This document shows, piece by piece, positions 13,540-20,528 of a stretch of 64,000 bases of DNA. The DNA comes from Akkermansia sp. (GTDB taxonomy: Bacteria > Verrucomicrobiota > Verrucomicrobiia > Verrucomicrobiales > Akkermansiaceae): contig JAFQDN010000003.1 in assembly GCA_017415995.1 (NCBI GenBank), forward strand, positions 1-64,000, given 5' to 3'. The number at the start of each line of letters is the position of its first letter. Position 1 is the stretch's first letter. The notes beneath the pieces were generated by a model. The model was not told the origin of the DNA, did not search any database, and saw nothing but the letters and a program-made list of their open reading frames with translations. Both the position numbers and the translations under genes were made by a program.

Positions 13540-13582
13540 TTGACAAACGCCATTTCACACCATAATATAACCACATATGGTG
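13540..13582 (+). promoter_or_regulatory. hip operon promoter and overlapping operator
   Basis: TTGACA (13540-13545), 17-bp spacer, TAATAT (13563-13568), only 8 nt before the ATG at 13577. The inverted repeat CACCATA (13558-13564)...TATGGTG (13576-13582) covers the -10 box and the start codon. Inside it CCACATATGG (13571-13580) is one base off the palindrome CCATATATGG found downstream of the operon. This layout suits autorepression by HipB. Confidence 0.7.
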
Positions 13583-13801
13583 AAACAAGAAGAAATCGGC
13601 GCCCTCATCAAAGCTCGCAGAATGAAAGAACGCGTGAGCTTGGAAGATTTAGCCGCTTTGACCGGAGTTGGCATTAATACCCTGAGCCGCCTGGAGCGAG
13701 GGGAGGGCAACACGCGCCTCAATGTTTTGCTCACCGTCACCAATGCATTGGGACTCCACCTCACCGTTACTCCCAACAAAACATCATACTGTGATTCATG
13801 A
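13577..13801 (+). CDS. hipB: HipB-like helix-turn-helix antitoxin/repressor
   Basis: Small cytoplasmic DNA-binding protein of 74 residues. An XRE/HipB-type helix-turn-helix spans about residues 8-62 (SLEDLAALTGVGINTLSRLE is the core). HipB proteins repress their own operon and neutralise the partner kinase. The ATG lies inside the operator-like repeat and about 9 nt after the -10 box, so the message may start at the codon itself. It overlaps the next gene by ATGA, indicating translational coupling. Confidence 0.85.
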   Translation: MVKQEEIGALIKARRMKERVSLEDLAALTGVGINTLSRLERGEGNTRLNVLLTVTNALGLHLTVTPNKTSYCDS

Positions 13802-14142
13802 GGGAAAGAAAAGCCACCGTTTACGTCAAAAACAAACCTGCCGCGGTGCTGGTTGAGCACGCGCAGCGGGGAAGCCGGCGTTACGAGTTACAATATCTGC
13901 CGGACTATTTGGAGCAAAAACCTTGTTTTCCCATCAGTCTGCGGCTTCCCCCCCGCCCCGCCCCCTACTTTGCAGAGCACCTTTTTCCCTTTTTCCAAAA
14001 CATGCTGCCGGAGGGTGAAAATAAAAAATTGACGTGCAAAGCCTGCAAGTTGGATGAGGATGACCTCTTCGGCATGCTGGTACATTTAGCTAAGTATGAT
14101 ACCGTGGGCGATGTAACCGTGCAAGAAATCACGAACTCATGA
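13798..14142 (+). CDS. hipS: HipS-like protein (detached HipA N-terminal subdomain)
   Basis: Protein of 114 residues that matches only the N-terminal subdomain of HipA (PISLRLPPRPAPY..., LFPFFQNMLPEGENK, LAKYDTVGDVTV). In the HipBST systems described in E. coli the corresponding HipS, not HipB, is the main antitoxin against the HipT kinase. Here the subdomain ends in its own stop and the kinase begins at an overlapping ATGA, the HipBST order. Both gene junctions are clean overlaps, so a decayed, frameshifted hipA is unlikely. Function is inferred from architecture. Confidence 0.8.
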   Translation: MRERKATVYVKNKPAAVLVEHAQRGSRRYELQYLPDYLEQKPCFPISLRLPPRPAPYFAEHLFPFFQNMLPEGENKKLTCKACKLDEDDLFGMLVHLAKYDTVGDVTVQEITNS

Positions 14143-15083
14143 AACCGCTTTTCTCAGAATACACCCCGGCAGAACGCGCCCAGATGTTCGAGGGCAAGGC
14201 GGCCTCCCCTCTTTTACCGTACCGTTACAAGGCTAAAGGATTAGGAGATGACTTACCGGCATCCACCGGCTCGCTCTCCGTATCCGGTGCTCAACAAAAA
14301 CTGGGAGTATGCCTTGAAAATGGCCTCCTGCGCATCGCGGAACCGGGTGAGCAAAGTACGCACATTCTGAAACCCTGTGCCGACGGCCGTTTTACCCTGA
14401 ATCACGATATGCCCGCCAATGAGTTATTTTGCCTCAGCATGGTGGCAAAACTATTCAAAATTCCTGCGGTCCACGCCACGCTATGCTTTTTCAGTGACGG
14501 AGTGCCGGCATACCTGACGAAGCGCTTTGACGTATTGCCGGACGGCTGCAAACGGCACGTCGAAGATATCGCCTCGCTTTCTGAAACGGAGGTTCAGGGA
14601 GATAGCCTCAAAAAATATCAGGGCAGTTACGAGCAATTAGCCGCCATCATCGCGGAAACCTCCACGGCTCCCCTGCTGGATTTACGTACCTTTTTCAAAC
14701 TGGTGCTGGTAAACTATTTACTGTGCAACGGCGACGCCCACGCCAAAAACTTTTCCATGATGGAGCATGATGACGGAGCTTGGAGATTGGCTCCGGCGTA
14801 TGATATTCTGAATACGCGCCTGCATGTGGCGGACTCCCCTTTTGCTATGGGCTCAGGCCTATTTTCTGATGGCCACAAATGCCATAAGAGTGGCATGCGG
14901 AATCACTTTACTGAATGGGCTGAGTGCATCGGCCTGAATGCCAAATTCGCAGCAAAAGAAATCAACAGAGCACTCACAACCCTCCCGGAACTATTGCTGC
15001 AACTGCAAAAATCGCATCTCTCTCAAAAGGCGCAACGCGTTTTCCGATACCATATCCGCCGGCGATTCCTGAGTTTGAAATGA
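14139..15083 (+). CDS. hipT: HipT-like serine/threonine protein kinase toxin
   Basis: HipA-fold kinase of 314 residues lacking the HipA N-terminal subdomain. Seen motifs: the Gly-rich-loop region SLSVSGAQQK (45-54) with Ser47 and Ser49 in the S-x-S arrangement that is autophosphorylated in HipT; ATP-binding Lys78 (HILKPC); the catalytic loop NGDAHAKNFS with Asp199 and Asn204; and the metal-binding LAPAYD with Asp222. Known HipA and HipT kinases inactivate aminoacyl-tRNA synthetases (GltX and TrpS respectively) and halt growth. The target here is not readable from sequence. All catalytic residues are intact. Confidence 0.85.
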   Translation: MKPLFSEYTPAERAQMFEGKAASPLLPYRYKAKGLGDDLPASTGSLSVSGAQQKLGVCLENGLLRIAEPGEQSTHILKPCADGRFTLNHDMPANELFCLSMVAKLFKIPAVHATLCFFSDGVPAYLTKRFDVLPDGCKRHVEDIASLSETEVQGDSLKKYQGSYEQLAAIIAETSTAPLLDLRTFFKLVLVNYLLCNGDAHAKNFSMMEHDDGAWRLAPAYDILNTRLHVADSPFAMGSGLFSDGHKCHKSGMRNHFTEWAECIGLNAKFAAKEINRALTTLPELLLQLQKSHLSQKAQRVFRYHIRRRFLSLK

Positions 15084-15165: not shown

Positions 15166-15215
15166 ATTTTTTTTGCTCTGATTCCCCTTTGCTCAATTCT
15201 GATACAGCAACTACT

Positions 15216-15302
15216 CGATAAATCGGAAGTTGAAGGGGTGTTTGCGAGCGCCAGCGCCTGCCACGGCGTAGCTGCGCAGCAGCGAAGACGGGAGCGGAAT
15301 TC
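15216..15302 (-). repeat. Dispersed repeat, copy B (inverted)
   Basis: Reverse complement of the sequence at the start of the window: about 50 bp next to the GAATTC end are identical. Its inner 41 bp (15216-15256) are also a perfect inverted match to 15729-15769. Confidence 0.85.
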
Positions 15303-15303
15303 T

Positions 15304-15717
15304 GAACCTGCGTCAGCGGGTGACCTAACTTAGCCTAGGGCGTAAGCCCTAGGAAATGGGTAAAAAAACAAATCCGAACCCGCGAACCGTTGAGGCTTGC
15401 CGAAACGGTATGCGGGTGGCATAACCCTCCCGGAGTACGTAAGTGCGAAGAAATCCCGTATGCATTAATTCGTCTTATGACATCGCATTATCAATGGGAT
15501 ATTAACGCACAAACAAAACACGCGCCACCCCGGCTCGGAGCTCCCGTCTCCGCGTCTCGCTACGCTCGCTTGCTACGCCGTGGCTGGCCGGTCCTCGCAC
15601 TATATGCCGCCCTCGTCGCCCTCGCTAGCGCTCTGGCAGCTCGGGCTCTATTTCATTTTGCTTGTTACCTAGGGCTTACGCCCTAGGCTAAGTTAGATCA
15701 CCCGCTGACGCGGGTTC
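15304..15717. mobile_element. 414-bp MITE-like element with 50-bp terminal inverted repeats
   Basis: The ends 15304-15353 and 15668-15717 are inverted copies identical at 48 of 50 positions. Each arm holds the palindrome CCTAGGGC-GTAA-GCCCTAGG. The interior has no transposase; the 98-codon frame at 15390-15686 has no recognisable domain. The second half (about 15535-15600) contains a diverged copy of the GCTCCCGTC...GCTACGCCGTGGC repeat. No target-site duplication is evident. It may be a non-autonomous element or an imprecise repeat cluster. Confidence 0.6.
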
Positions 15718-15728
15718 TGATTTAGGCT

Positions 15729-15800
15729 CGCTGGCGCTCGCAAACACCCCTTCAACTTCCGATTTATCGGGCAGTTTGAAATCAACTGAAAACTTAAACA
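15729..15800 (+). repeat. Dispersed repeat, copy C
   Basis: 15729-15769 is a perfect inverted match to copy B and 15761-15800 matches copy A (93-132) at 38 of 40 positions. With copy B it forms the outer arms of a nested inverted repeat around the 414-bp element. Confidence 0.85.
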
Positions 15801-15940: not shown

Positions 15941-18376
15941 TTACTTTCGTCTGCGTCGCACCGCTAAAGCTGCCAGCGCCAGCAGGCTCAGCGTTGCTGT
16001 GGCAGGTTCGGGCACGACTCTATTAACACCGACTAGATACACAGCCCCCTGTTCATATACCAGCTTGGTATTCTCGTTAATCCAATCACCAGAAAAGTAA
16101 TCCATAGCATTCAACGTGACCATTGAGCTTTTTTGAGTTGCTGTGATATTATCAAAAACAAACTTGACAGTCTTGACGTCTGTAAAGAGCATGACCTCTG
16201 AATCTTCATTGTATTGTGCTCCCAACGTCAAGATCAAATTAATTTCGTTACCGGGTTTAGAGTTGAACGAAAGTGTACCGTCAATGACGCTCAGATGAGC
16301 ACCATCAGCCTTATATGTGGAATTAGCTGCCAAATTTAAGTCGCCGCTTATAATCCCCCCCAGCTTTTCGTTGAAAATAGATACGCTATCTTCTTCCGCA
16401 AGCGTTATAACAGAATCAGGCAATGGGATATCTGTACTCTCCACAGCTAAAGCTGCGCCATCTGCAATGGTGATGGTTTTCGCCGTTAATTTGGCGCTTC
16501 CATTCACTCCTTTTAAAGTCAGTTGCCCGGTACTGTTAATCGTTACATTATACCCGGCAGCATTTACTTCTGCATCCAGCACTTTCAAGGTTGCATTGCC
16601 TGCCGCTACCAGATTGACATCGTGCGTTTTCAGAACAGCATTTTCTTCGACTCGTAACGTACCGGCATGCAGGTTTACCGTACTCAGTATTTCGCTCGTG
16701 CGTGAGTTTCCAATTTCCGCAGCCGTTCCGGCAATCCCCCCTTTTACTTCTTTCAAAGCCTCTTCCGTATATTTCCCGCTGAAGATGATGTCGCCGGTCT
16801 GTGCCACGGTTTCACCGTTGCTGTTGGTGTATTTACTGTTCAGAGCCAGACTGCCCCCCACATATACGCTGTCTTGAAATTCAATAAAGTGCCCTTCTGA
16901 CGCGGATAATACCACATCTCCGGTAGCATAGAGTCCTCTCAAACGATAGGTGTACGGATTACTTTCAGTATTATTTCCATGCCGTTCATAGTTCTGCTTG
17001 AAGATAACACTGTCGTTGCCCTGTATGGTGACAGTTTCGGCGTAGATAGCGCCACCATAAGCACCCTCGCTGTTTTTAGTGCTCTTTGCACTGTTTCCGT
17101 TAAACATGACGCTTCCGTTTTCGCTGAATAATAGGGACTCTGAAATCGCAGAAATCGCACCACCTGTAACAAAACGTGTACCGGAAGAATAATTATCTTC
17201 AAAGAGCACGTTTTGATTATCGTTGATTATAACAAAGCCGATAGATCCAATAGCTCCACCATTAGAGGATAGAGTGGAGCTTGTCGTACTAGCGTAATTA
17301 TTCGTGAAAGAGATACTATCATTCTTGTCGATTGTCAAGGTGTCATCGCAGAAAACAGCCCCGCCGTTTGCCGCACCATCTGCAGGTGAAACATAATTCC
17401 CATCGAAGGTTACACTTTTATTTTTGCTGATTTCTCCACCGGTTTCAATATGAATCGCCCCACCAAAAGCAGAGTATTGGCTCCCCGCTGTATAGCAATA
17501 ATTACTCTTGAAGGTTACAACATTATTTTCACTAATGTAAAGGAAAGAACTGCTTAAAATGGCTCCGCCTAGACAGGATTCGGCACCCTTTGTACAATTC
17601 CCTTCAAATGTTACGCTTTCATTTTCGCTGAGAGTTGTAGTACCGCTGTTGTTGTAAATCGCCCCGCCATGCGCTGAGCCGTAGCCAGTGGCATAATTGT
17701 TGTTAAATATTACACTTTTATTTTTGCTAAGAGTTATATCTCCATCGTAACTATAAATTGCCCCTCCGTAGATTTCAGGCGAGTATATTGAACTGTACGT
17801 AGATGATGAATAATTGTCTGAAAAAATAACGTTTTCATTCCTATTGAGCGCTATGGTTCCATTGTAGCTGTAAATAGCGCCTCCGCAGGTAAGGTCTTGT
17901 GCGCTGGTAGAGGTATTTTTACTGAAAACAACTTTGATGTTATCCTCTATGGCAACAGAACCTGAGTTTTGCGCGAATATGGCACCTCCAGAGTAATTGT
18001 TAACAAACTCACTAGCGCCGGCAGAAAAGGTTAATTCATCCAATCCTAAAAGAGTAAGGATTTCTTGGTCTTTAATATACACGTCGCTGTTTGAGGTAAA
18101 AGCAAGCGATGAACGAGACGCTGTATCAGCAGAGGTAAATAAACGAGACCCAGCAGCTAAGCTAATCACCCTTACACTTGAAAACGTTAAATCATTTTGC
18201 AAAAGGAAAGCATAATCAGCGGAATTCCCGACCGCATCAGTTACTTCTTCAGGGGTAGTAACATCGAATGCTGTATATGAAGACGGAACTTCTGCCGCAA
18301 GTGTAAGATTAGGCAGGGCTGCTGTAATGAGTGTGGCAACTGCACAGAGCCGTCGAACAGGGAGGTGTAATTTCAT
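15941..18376 (-). CDS. Pmp-like surface protein with PEP-CTERM anchor
   Basis: Exported beta-helix-type protein of 811 residues. A signal peptide (cut near LTLAA, about residue 28) is followed by a region at about 120-460 holding ten GGA[IV] motifs and eleven FxxN motifs (such as FSDN, FNNN, FEGN, FDGN). These are the paired repeat motifs of chlamydial polymorphic membrane proteins. The C-terminus is a PEP-CTERM sorting signal: VPEPATATLSLLALAALA then RRRRK. Such proteins are processed by exosortase; none is in this window. It lies 18 bp after the membrane-protein gene and probably shares its promoter. A role in adhesion is inferred only. Confidence 0.85.
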   Translation of the reverse strand: MKLHLPVRRLCAVATLITAALPNLTLAAEVPSSYTAFDVTTPEEVTDAVGNSADYAFLLQNDLTFSSVRVISLAAGSRLFTSADTASRSSLAFTSNSDVYIKDQEILTLLGLDELTFSAGASEFVNNYSGGAIFAQNSGSVAIEDNIKVVFSKNTSTSAQDLTCGGAIYSYNGTIALNRNENVIFSDNYSSSTYSSIYSPEIYGGAIYSYDGDITLSKNKSVIFNNNYATGYGSAHGGAIYNNSGTTTLSENESVTFEGNCTKGAESCLGGAILSSSFLYISENNVVTFKSNYCYTAGSQYSAFGGAIHIETGGEISKNKSVTFDGNYVSPADGAANGGAVFCDDTLTIDKNDSISFTNNYASTTSSTLSSNGGAIGSIGFVIINDNQNVLFEDNYSSGTRFVTGGAISAISESLLFSENGSVMFNGNSAKSTKNSEGAYGGAIYAETVTIQGNDSVIFKQNYERHGNNTESNPYTYRLRGLYATGDVVLSASEGHFIEFQDSVYVGGSLALNSKYTNSNGETVAQTGDIIFSGKYTEEALKEVKGGIAGTAAEIGNSRTSEILSTVNLHAGTLRVEENAVLKTHDVNLVAAGNATLKVLDAEVNAAGYNVTINSTGQLTLKGVNGSAKLTAKTITIADGAALAVESTDIPLPDSVITLAEEDSVSIFNEKLGGIISGDLNLAANSTYKADGAHLSVIDGTLSFNSKPGNEINLILTLGAQYNEDSEVMLFTDVKTVKFVFDNITATQKSSMVTLNAMDYFSGDWINENTKLVYEQGAVYLVGVNRVVPEPATATLSLLALAALAVRRRRK

Positions 18377-18394
18377 GGTTCAAATAAGGTTAGA

Positions 18395-19216
18395 TTATTT
18401 AGAATTGGGGATTGAAATCGTGTGGTCTGTCATCCTAATGACATGCTGATATCGGTGATAGTCAAAAACAATTTCTAGGAGCAATAGCATAACAGCAACC
18501 GTTAAACCATCTTGCACATTGGCATTAGCATCGATCTTCAGCACAAAACATGAACCGGCAATCCAAGCAAAACAACAACTCTGCACACAGTGAATAAAAT
18601 CAGACCACGTGGACACCTTTCGAGCAATAGCATGACTCATCTGCAAGTCGGGCAACAATTCAACTTTTTCTTTTTGCTCTTTGGTGGCGCTGTTCTTTTT
18701 AAGCTCTTCTTCAATAAACCAACATTGTTGTGTACGTTGTATGACAAGGCTCAATCCATTCGTCAGCAGTAATCCAAAGAAAACAAATATAAGCACTGCT
18801 ATGATTAGCGCAAGAATGGAATGAAACCAAAGCACACAAAGAAATAGAAGAATTCCAAAAATAACAAGGCTAAAGATACCGGAGCTCTTTGACTTAAGTG
18901 AAATATGCTTGTGGAACAATTCAAATAATCCTTGTACGCAATAACTGTACAGATTTTTCTCCAAATGGTATATTATCGTACCTATAATACAGGAACAAAT
19001 TCCTACCACCGCTAATTTTCCGGCATCCCAAGCTAAAGGGGCACTGTGTTGTATGCGCAAACTATTCTGTGTTACTTCATAAGCAGTCGCGTTCTCACAC
19101 AAAAAACAGTTGCAATGGGATGTTGCATACAGAAGAAAAGGAATAAAGAAGACTACGCCACAAAAGAATTGACGCAGAAAATTTTGTATCGAAAACTTAG
19201 GCAGAAACGAATCCAT
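18395..19216 (-). CDS. Multi-pass membrane protein, function unknown
   Basis: I do not recognise this 273-residue protein. It has about four or more hydrophobic stretches: near residues 14-28 (FFCGVVFFIPFLLYA), 66-84 (AVVGICSCIIGTIIY), 111-155 (LVIFGILLFLCVLWF then LALIIAVLIFVFFGLLL) and about 215-255. Cysteines and charged loops lie between. An ATG at 19216 is preferred; a GTG at 19222 would add two residues. Base composition is more A+T-rich than the flanking housekeeping genes, suggesting acquired DNA. It precedes the Pmp-like gene and lies next to the 17-bp inverted repeat. Confidence 0.7.
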   Translation of the reverse strand: MDSFLPKFSIQNFLRQFFCGVVFFIPFLLYATSHCNCFLCENATAYEVTQNSLRIQHSAPLAWDAGKLAVVGICSCIIGTIIYHLEKNLYSYCVQGLFELFHKHISLKSKSSGIFSLVIFGILLFLCVLWFHSILALIIAVLIFVFFGLLLTNGLSLVIQRTQQCWFIEEELKKNSATKEQKEKVELLPDLQMSHAIARKVSTWSDFIHCVQSCCFAWIAGSCFVLKIDANANVQDGLTVAVMLLLLEIVFDYHRYQHVIRMTDHTISIPNSK

Positions 19217-19236
19217 ATTCACTTATGTAGCTATAA

Positions 19237-19389
19237 TACGTATTCATAATGCGTACGGCATCCTATCAAACACCGTGACAATTATCGAGTTAAATTTTGC
19301 ATTCCGGATGCCTTGAAAAGTGCGTGCACGGTAATTTTTATTTGGATATCCGCAAAAAATGTGCTTGACTTGCGCATTATGAATACGTA
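19237..19389. promoter_or_regulatory. Candidate invertible promoter segment (17-bp inverted repeats)
   Basis: TACGTATTCATAATGCG (19237-19253) and CGCATTATGAATACGTA (19373-19389) are exact inverted copies around 119 bp. The right arm contains the recombinase ATG (19379). The 119 bp hold TTGACT at 19365-19370, two bases from the right arm. If inverted, TTGACT would sit 17 bp before TATTAT, formed by the last two bases of the left arm plus 19233-19236, and would face the membrane-protein gene. In the present orientation the same -35 position reads ATGCCG. Confidence 0.6.
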
Positions 19390-20380
19390 CACAACCGAAG
19401 AGGTAGCAGCATTGGAGATATTGCGAGGGACGGGCGTTAACATCGTGGAGGCAGCACTGGTGGCGAGGGCGGCGCTGGAGGCGGGTAGATACAAAGTGAA
19501 GCGTGCGATGAAGTGCGTAGCACTGGGCGCGGAGGAGTTGAAGCGGCAGGAGAAGACGGTAAGCTTTGAAAAGGCGGTGGCGGAGGCGCTGGAGGCAAGA
19601 AAAGGGCGGAGAGCGAGGACGCTGAGCGACTACCGCTATGTGACACGGCGATTCATGAAGCGCTGCGAGGGGTTGGCACAGCGGCGTGTGCGCAGTATAA
19701 GGCCGGAGGAGTGCGCGGCGTACATCGAGCAAGCCTTCACCACGCCGAGCCAGCGGGCAAAGGCAAGGCGTATACTCAGCGCAGTGTTCGGCACGGCGGT
19801 GAAGCGTGGCTGGTGCAGCGAGAACCCGGTGCATAAGGTGGATGTGCCGGTGGTGAAGGAGCAGCGCATCCGCATCCTGACACCGGAGGAGATAGAGCAA
19901 CTGCTGAGCACGGCGCGCAGCTACCGCGGGGGCTGCTGCCTGCCGGCGGTTGGCATGATGCTGTATGCGGGCATACGCCCGCATGAGGTGGCGCGGCTCA
20001 CGTGGGAGCAAGTGGATTTGGAGGGCGGAACCATCAGCATCCTTCCGCAGCACAGCAAGACCGGAGGCGCGCGCCTGGTGACCATCCACAAGCCGCTGGC
20101 GCGGCTGCTGGCACAATTCCGCCAAGAAAAAACGGCCAAAATATGCCCGAGGCAATGGGTGAAGCGCTGGCGCCAGCTGCGCACCCAAGCGGGGTGGAAT
20201 ACCCGCAACCACCGCTGGCAGCAGGATGCCCTGCGCCACACCTTCGCGAGCTACCACCTGCGCCACTTCCGCAGCTACAGCGAGCTGCAATACGAAATCG
20301 GCCACCGCGACACCAACCTCCTGCGCACACGCTATGTGGACATGAGCGGCGTGCGCCGCTCCAAGCGTTTTTGGTTGTAG
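19379..20380 (+). CDS. Tyrosine recombinase / phage-type integrase
   Basis: Site-specific recombinase of 333 residues. The N-terminal half has a SAM-like core-binding domain (about 62-145). The catalytic domain shows Arg200 (YAGIRPHEVARL), Lys227 (SKTGGAR), Arg286-His287 (DALRHTFASY), His309 (GHRD) and the nucleophile Tyr319 (LRTRYVDM). Where most members have His in HxLRH, this one has Asp283 (DALRH). The start at 19379 is an ATG inside the right arm of the 17-bp inverted repeat; an upstream TTG at 19313 is less likely. Its position beside the inverted repeat suggests it acts on it. It has its own terminator. Confidence 0.88.
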   Translation: MNTYTTEEVAALEILRGTGVNIVEAALVARAALEAGRYKVKRAMKCVALGAEELKRQEKTVSFEKAVAEALEARKGRRARTLSDYRYVTRRFMKRCEGLAQRRVRSIRPEECAAYIEQAFTTPSQRAKARRILSAVFGTAVKRGWCSENPVHKVDVPVVKEQRIRILTPEEIEQLLSTARSYRGGCCLPAVGMMLYAGIRPHEVARLTWEQVDLEGGTISILPQHSKTGGARLVTIHKPLARLLAQFRQEKTAKICPRQWVKRWRQLRTQAGWNTRNHRWQQDALRHTFASYHLRHFRSYSELQYEIGHRDTNLLRTRYVDMSGVRRSKRFWL

Positions 20381-20409
20381 TAGCCCGGAACCCATGCGCA
20401 CAGGCAGCA

Positions 20410-20442
20410 CGCGCGAGCCCGAACAGCGCCCGCGCGATTTTT
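20410..20442 (+). terminator. Recombinase-gene terminator
   Basis: CGCGCG (20410-20415) pairs with CGCGCG (20431-20436) with further inner pairs, followed by ATTTTTAT. Confidence 0.65.
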
Positions 20443-20497
20443 ATAGGGTACGGGGCTGAGGCATAGCCCTCCTACAAACGCCACCGCAGTAAGCAAA

Positions 20498-20528
20498 CCC
20501 GCTCGGTTGGGTGAGCCAACCGAGCGGG
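20498..20528 (-). terminator. rpoC terminator
   Basis: CCCGCTCGGTTGG (20498-20510), loop GTGAG, CCAACCGAGCGGG (20516-20528): a 13-bp perfect stem 31 bp after the rpoC stop. On the minus strand it is followed by TTTGCTT. Confidence 0.85.

Follow-up and report, generated by a model that had tools for sequence, protein, structure and literature searches.

The window examined here, i.e., the whole stretch of 64,000 nucleotides, comes from an Akkermansia genome; of 9 matching loci, the four at 60-70% identity are from Akkermansia or Akkermansiaceae assemblies, and the remaining five are distant, partial matches in other phyla. It contains two 17-bp arms that are exact reverse complements of each other (left arm, TACGTATTCATAATGCG, 19237..19253; right arm, 19373..19389) and enclose an inner segment of 119 bp (19254..19372), for a total span of 153 bp. 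When mismatches are allowed, the arms lengthen on their inner side to 24 nt, with 88% complementarity. A short segment between inverted repeats of ca. 10-40 bp is the structure expected of an inverton, and 19237-19389 has it. To its right, on the plus strand, is the intact gene of a 333-aa tyrosine recombinase (19379..20380), whose ATG (19379-19381) falls inside the right arm and whose open frame reaches upstream as far as 19313. To its left, on the minus strand, is the predicted target operon, with a first gene for a 273-aa membrane protein without Pfam family (18395..19216; 6 further genomes of the genus have a relative) and, 18 bp after it, a second gene for an 811-aa surface protein (15941..18376). 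This surface protein had been termed Pmp-like in the preliminary description, a label that is right as far as its Chlamydia-PMP repeats are concerned (PF02415, E 2.1e-17), but the Pfam scan reported no autotransporter barrel family, and the protein ends instead in a PEP-CTERM tail (residues 788-810).

Two hexamers near the arms are predicted to be the halves of a promoter. TTGACT (19365..19370, plus strand) lies inside the segment, in the same position as in the rest of the family, and is the predicted mobile -35 box, at present facing the recombinase. TATTAT (19233..19238, minus strand) is predicted to act as the fixed -10 box of the operon; it shares two bases with the left arm (the outermost two of the arm), and 16 bp separate its end from the membrane-protein ATG. 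As assembled, the -35 position of the operon is occupied by ATGCCG (19256..19261, minus strand), which still matches TTGACA at three of six positions, so the OFF state may leak. Inversion, under which position x becomes 38626-x, would put TTGACT on the minus strand at 19256-19261, at a distance of 17 bp from TATTAT; going by the letters alone, one orientation thus puts a promoter (TTGACT-N17-TATTAT) before the operon and the other takes it away. The preliminary description had given the exact repeats around 119 bp, the ATG within one arm, the 17-bp distance after inversion and the hexamer now in the -35 position, and we could verify all of these from coordinates and letters, the repeat base for base. 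A promoter scan of 18300-20500 as assembled, which is weak evidence, gave a total of one promoter-like site, which lies within the membrane gene on the plus strand (mean of 2.1 in shuffles), and none on the minus strand, and the same region contained 0 terminators (mean of 3.0 in shuffles), which is equally weak evidence.

Among 200 shuffles of the window that preserved its dinucleotides, a single one produced exact inverted arms of ≥17 bp that were 50-400 bp apart, and the window itself holds a longer repeat (29 bp exact, 15325-15696); the 17-bp repeat is therefore uncommon, and taken alone only suggestive. We judge it to be real because repeats recur at the recombinase starts of relatives, as detailed below.

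Two other features were noticed on the far side of the operon. The longer repeat is part of a long interrupted inverted repeat (15215-15770), a repeated element whose GATAAATCGGAAGTTGAAGGGGTGTTTGCGAGCGC end is also found downstream of the recombinase of a second copy of the switch (contig C31). Next to it, at 13577-15083 on the plus strand, are three overlapping or adjacent genes for a 74-aa helix-turn-helix-like protein, a 114-aa protein with a HipA N-terminal domain and a 314-aa HipA-C kinase, a trio that we take to resemble the three-gene HipBST toxin-antitoxin set.

The protein encoded at 19379..20380 matches PF00589 (E 2.1e-16) and has the Arg, Lys, (His/Lys), Arg, His/Trp, Tyr set of tyrosine recombinases: at least 123 of 125 relatives retain R200, K227, R286, H309 and Y319, and Asp283 replaces the first His of HxxR, as Asp does in 124 of the 125. 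A serine invertase of the Hin/Gin kind is ruled out, as Pfam gives only Phage_integrase and Phage_int_M matches. The NCBIfam matches of the protein are to Xer-type models and fall far below cut-off. The predicted structure (mean pLDDT 91.8) has the fold of the Tn1549 and lambda integrases (6en2_A, E 6.1e-10, TM 0.62), from which the protein is set apart by an identity of only 16-19% and by the Asp in HxxR, and no PDB sequence matched it at E 0.001. Relatives at E 1e-30 or better occur in 75 of the 76 genomes of the genus; in a sample at the family level 21 of 145 genomes matched, 20 of them from the same genus and 1 from another, and a protein search returned at least 983 relatives at E 1e-30 among 8000 candidates. 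The generic phage-type integrase scores of the protein would also suit an ordinary mobile-element integrase, with the repeats as element ends or attachment sites. Against this, the segments of relatives are inverted in place while their flanks stay fixed, the -10 box is kept on the target side only (both shown below), and the virus collection yielded neither the exact arm nor any relative of the enzyme; we give this explanation very little credence.

For the wider survey we examined 129 distinct recombinase loci, which are part of the listed matches (the best-scoring ones, those of complete genomes and those of the same genome as the window), and searched the 120 with at least 300 bp upstream for a repeat ending between -60 and +25 of the recombinase start. 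Such a repeat was present in 103 of the 120 loci, compared to 26 of 600 random anchors in the same DNA, and with a repeat score of at least 12 the figures were 94 of 120 and 7 of 600; the random anchors imply that ca. 4% of the repeat calls are expected by chance, and the remaining 17 of the 120 loci have no detectable repeat. That 103 of 120 recombinases start at a repeat, and that the right arm overlaps the recombinase ATG at the locus under study, could also mean that the repeat is an operator or regulatory palindrome which serves the recombinase gene only, without any inversion. It would then be surprising that the segments inside the repeats lie inverted, between similar flanks, in orthologues and in a fragment on contig C94, and that TAnnnT stands 17 bp away on the far side, before another gene, in 70 of 101 loci. 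This alternative had already been raised in the preliminary description; it fails to explain the inverted orthologues, and we hold it to be very improbable.

The sequence of the arms follows that of the recombinase. Mean arm identity is 0.40-0.45 for recombinases that are <65% identical, 0.72 at 65-75%, 0.82 at 75-90% and 0.73 at >90%, and the two are correlated in a Mantel test (r 0.536, n 99, 0 of 2000 permutations as high). Such a correlation supports, and does not prove, a matched recognition of site by enzyme, since the shared ancestry of neighbouring DNA contributes to it. The locus is one of many recombinase-plus-switch modules in Akkermansia, in which the repeats track the recombinase's own lineage.

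In 104 repeat-bearing loci the -35 (a TTG-type box beside an arm) was located blind to the -10. It faces the recombinase in 91 of them (predicted OFF) and the upstream gene in 10 (predicted ON; one of these calls, L136, with TTGCCC and atypical arms, is doubtful), and 3 were undecided. On the side of the target gene, 70 of 101 loci have TAnnnT at a distance of exactly 17 bp from the -35 position, compared to at most 9 at any other spacing from 13 to 22 bp. None of the 101 has it at 17 bp on the side of the recombinase, where the maximum at any spacing from 13 to 22 bp is 10 of 101 (at 20 bp). Once loci with similar flanks are removed, the contrast at 17 bp remains (63 of 90 on the gene side, 0 of 90 on the recombinase side). 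TAnnnT at this distance is missing from the gene side of 31 of the 101 loci. The family composite reads TTGACT, 17 bp that are the repeat itself, and TA.a.T, and the hexamer on the arm opposite the -35 has two or fewer matches to TTGACA in 90 of 101 loci (three in the ATGCCG of our locus). Given 70 of 101 on one side and 0 of 101 on the other, we conclude that the -35 alone moves, that the repeat is the spacer and that the -10 stays with the gene. Thus, the earlier claim that inversion switches a promoter stands in so far as an invertible promoter is concerned, but the mobile part is the -35 box and not the whole promoter. The OFF state proposed for the locus as assembled agrees with the 91 of 104 relatives in the same state; this excess of OFF in assemblies could stem from sampling or from OFF being the majority state in the gut.

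At the locus under study TTGACT is also 17 bp from TACACA (19388..19393, plus strand), a weak -10-like hexamer on the recombinase side (three of six matches). It could therefore be asked whether the switch has two outputs, with the -35 driving the recombinase as assembled and, after inversion, the surface operon, so that the recombinase would silence itself: TTGACT-N17-TACACA does aim at the recombinase, and C31 has the same TACACA. Such a transcript, though, would start downstream of the recombinase ATG, and the family speaks against it, with recombinase-side TAnnnT at 17 bp in 0 of 101 loci and in no more than 10 at the best other spacing (20 bp). We regard a two-output switch as quite improbable here. 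The recombinase is probably not under the moving box, as no good -10 is present at the 17-bp spacing on its side, and TACACA might support weak transcription into it. As a general rule for the family, a moving -35 that drives the recombinase was dropped, since none of the 101 loci has TAnnnT at 17 bp on that side.

The same boxes were sought in G005, taken as A. muciniphila ATCC BAA-835, where 25 sites have a TTGAC box beside a CGGATT arm (up to 3 mismatches) and 0 sites have the reversed pattern. A second arm with up to 2 mismatches accompanies 22 of the 25. The -10 matches that flank these sites are mixed on either side, so we limit the 17-bp -10 rule to recombinase-linked loci. The recombinase family has 5 matches in G005. 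A family recombinase encoded there (C1:2437097-2438074, L210) has an inverted repeat just upstream (L204). It adjoins the CRISPR coordinates at which the A. muciniphila genome paper (PMC3048395) places the 'mobile element' integrase Amuc_2006, and it may be an inverton recombinase instead.

The locus itself is represented by a single assembly and a single orientation. The other 75 genomes of the genus yielded no close orthologue of the switch, and the best matches in them are a related switch in G023 (68% over 163 bp) and the start of a membrane gene in G026 (76% over 80 bp). Evidence of inversion comes from its relatives. Among 50 pairs of loci with similar left flanks, 31 have the same orientation, 12 are undecided and 7 scored as inverted, i.e., 4 clear pairs from two loci and 3 weak ones. 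In the first of these loci, the inner segments of L110 and L052, which belong to two species, score 145 as reverse complements and 13 directly, and L110 is also inverted against L117 and L050. In the second, L045 and L046 score 136 and 10, respectively; both of their recombinases have an in-frame TAG, and the open frame of L046 stops just past the catalytic Tyr region (L219). Two proteins among the 120 homologues listed (P0009 and P0010) are identical in their last 290 residues and differ in their first ones, one of them encoding the -35 frame, a difference that would fit two orientations of a switch.

Further copies occur in the same genome. Positions 3258-3329 of C94 (L138) are 96% identical to 19318-19389 and are turned the other way round with respect to the adjoining recombinase remnant, and there TTGACT-N17-TAGAAT points toward a surface gene of at least 1075 aa that is cut by the contig end; a second arm was not found at this copy, and the recombinase is reduced to a piece. 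On C26 (L004, 180-230) a single arm at the contig end faces another MKLHLP gene. The copies on C94 (L138, 3258-3700) and C26 (L004), single arms with TTGACT 17 bp from TAGAAT or TAGACT before MKLHLP surface genes and without an intact recombinase, are apparently switches frozen ON. The near twin on C31 has the same 153-bp span, a recombinase that is 97% identical, TACAAT outside the left arm and the -35 toward the recombinase. The same genome thus holds copies that are frozen or have lost parts (C94, C26), and these, together with 91 of 104 loci in the OFF state, could mean that the present locus is itself a locked relic, once inverted and now fixed OFF, flipping rarely or never. A relic of this kind is nevertheless hard to reconcile with exact 17-bp arms, an intact recombinase with its catalytic residues in place and the retention of a near-identical second copy at C31 (recombinase 97% identical), and we find it unlikely.

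We therefore consider it likely that the 153-bp segment is an inverton flipped by the neighbouring recombinase, which moves a -35 box to or from a fixed -10 box, and that the surface operon is OFF as assembled. The invertible-promoter reading of the preliminary description is upheld by the relatives, which have the -35 in the segment, a fixed -10 on the gene side and orthologues both ways round, and the inverted form that it proposed to look for in related genomes was found as opposite orientations at two orthologous loci (the L110 set and L045/L046). In the mechanism that we propose, the recombinase of 19379..20380 would flip the adjoining copy and in doing so carry TTGACT to or from TATTAT, ahead of the operon for the membrane and PMP-repeat proteins, whose transcription would follow the orientation of the segment. 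In the ON state the promoter would have the 17 bp of the inverted repeat as its spacer, and because repeat and spacer are one, recombination inside the repeat would join or part the promoter halves at constant spacing.

What the related switches face is diverse. The 101 loci gave 94 distinct upstream reading frames. An MKLHLP-like leader opens 37 of them; 19 frames have their start codon 7-11 bp from the -10, and 32 have it at 20-34 bp. Pfam searches with up to 330 first residues of 86 of these 94 targets identified PMP repeats in 14, acyltransferase 3 in 5, SIR2-like domains in 3, GtrA in 2, and HsdM and glycosyltransferase 25 in 1 each. The operon type seen here, in which a membrane protein of the LRQFFCGVVFF kind beside the repeat is followed by a gene with an MKLHLP or MKPHLP leader, recurs in three other species (G026, G043 and G048); in G026 the repeat is adjoined by a recombinase that seems damaged, with an intact one following it. 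At L212, L213 and L214 we also noticed that an unnamed membrane family with a WSDFIHC motif repeatedly precedes the MKLHLP- or MKPHLP-leader surface gene beside the switch, which suggests that this family is a dedicated partner of the leader surface genes. Some switches face predicted defence-type genes, such as the start of an HsdM-like methylase at L048 and, as judged by eye, proteins of the SIR2-like kind at L035, L077 and L134. Across the genus, we lean towards the view that these loci make up an arsenal of modules that each pair one recombinase with one switch, that a module flips the -35 half of its promoter only, uses the recombination site as the spacer and randomly sets a different envelope or defence-type gene ON or OFF (PMP-repeat, MKLHLP-leader, acyltransferase, GtrA-type, HsdM, SIR2-like), and that copies such as that on C94 were frozen ON after the loss of their recombinase.

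FimB/FimE-fimS and Mpi-type invertons carry a whole promoter inside the segment. The present locus resembles them in its tyrosine recombinase, its inverted repeats and the promoter switching of surface structures, and differs in that only the -35 is inside the segment and the repeat is the spacer, without a close sequence relation. Akkermansia has been reported to be rich in invertons, and since Akkermansia invertons are known in print, we assign the switch to this known kind. Their arm motif, CGGATT..AATCCG, is said to go back to Jiang et al. 2019; unlike it, the arm here is CGCATTATGAATACG, a degenerate form to which only the looser CGNATTNNNAATNCG fits exactly, and a dedicated recombinase adjoins it. 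CGGATT is present in 50 of 101 spacers of the family.

According to the accessible text of PMC11892184, 32 of the 39 members of inverton group 138 come from A. muciniphila and PEP-CTERM genes are enriched nearby; the present locus is alike in genus, in its short intergenic segment between inverted repeats and in a PEP-CTERM gene close by. That text names no enzyme for the Akkermansia group and describes nearby invertases as generally beyond regulation by the inverton; the absence of a -10 on the recombinase side fits this. At the G005 positions of an A. muciniphila inverton published there (2092093-2092283) we found no inverted repeat, and the numbering of the assemblies may differ. The cps1 capsule inverton of Akkermansia occurs in both orientations in culture, in mice and in human stool, as given in the accessible text of PMC13343947, whose main text, so far as accessible, contains neither 'recombinase' nor 'integrase', and the half-promoter layout of the present locus was not found described for Akkermansia invertons in the accessible parts of these two papers. 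Within the literature searched (Jiang et al. 2019 only as cited elsewhere), what the locus adds to the known Akkermansia invertons is thus a dedicated recombinase family and a split promoter, neither of which was found described. The first points to a genus-specific family of recombinases with matching sites, and the second suggests that the target gene and its ON or OFF state can be read from an assembly by a simple rule, in which the -35 is mobile, the -10 is fixed and the repeat is the spacer; both are testable in a cultured commensal.
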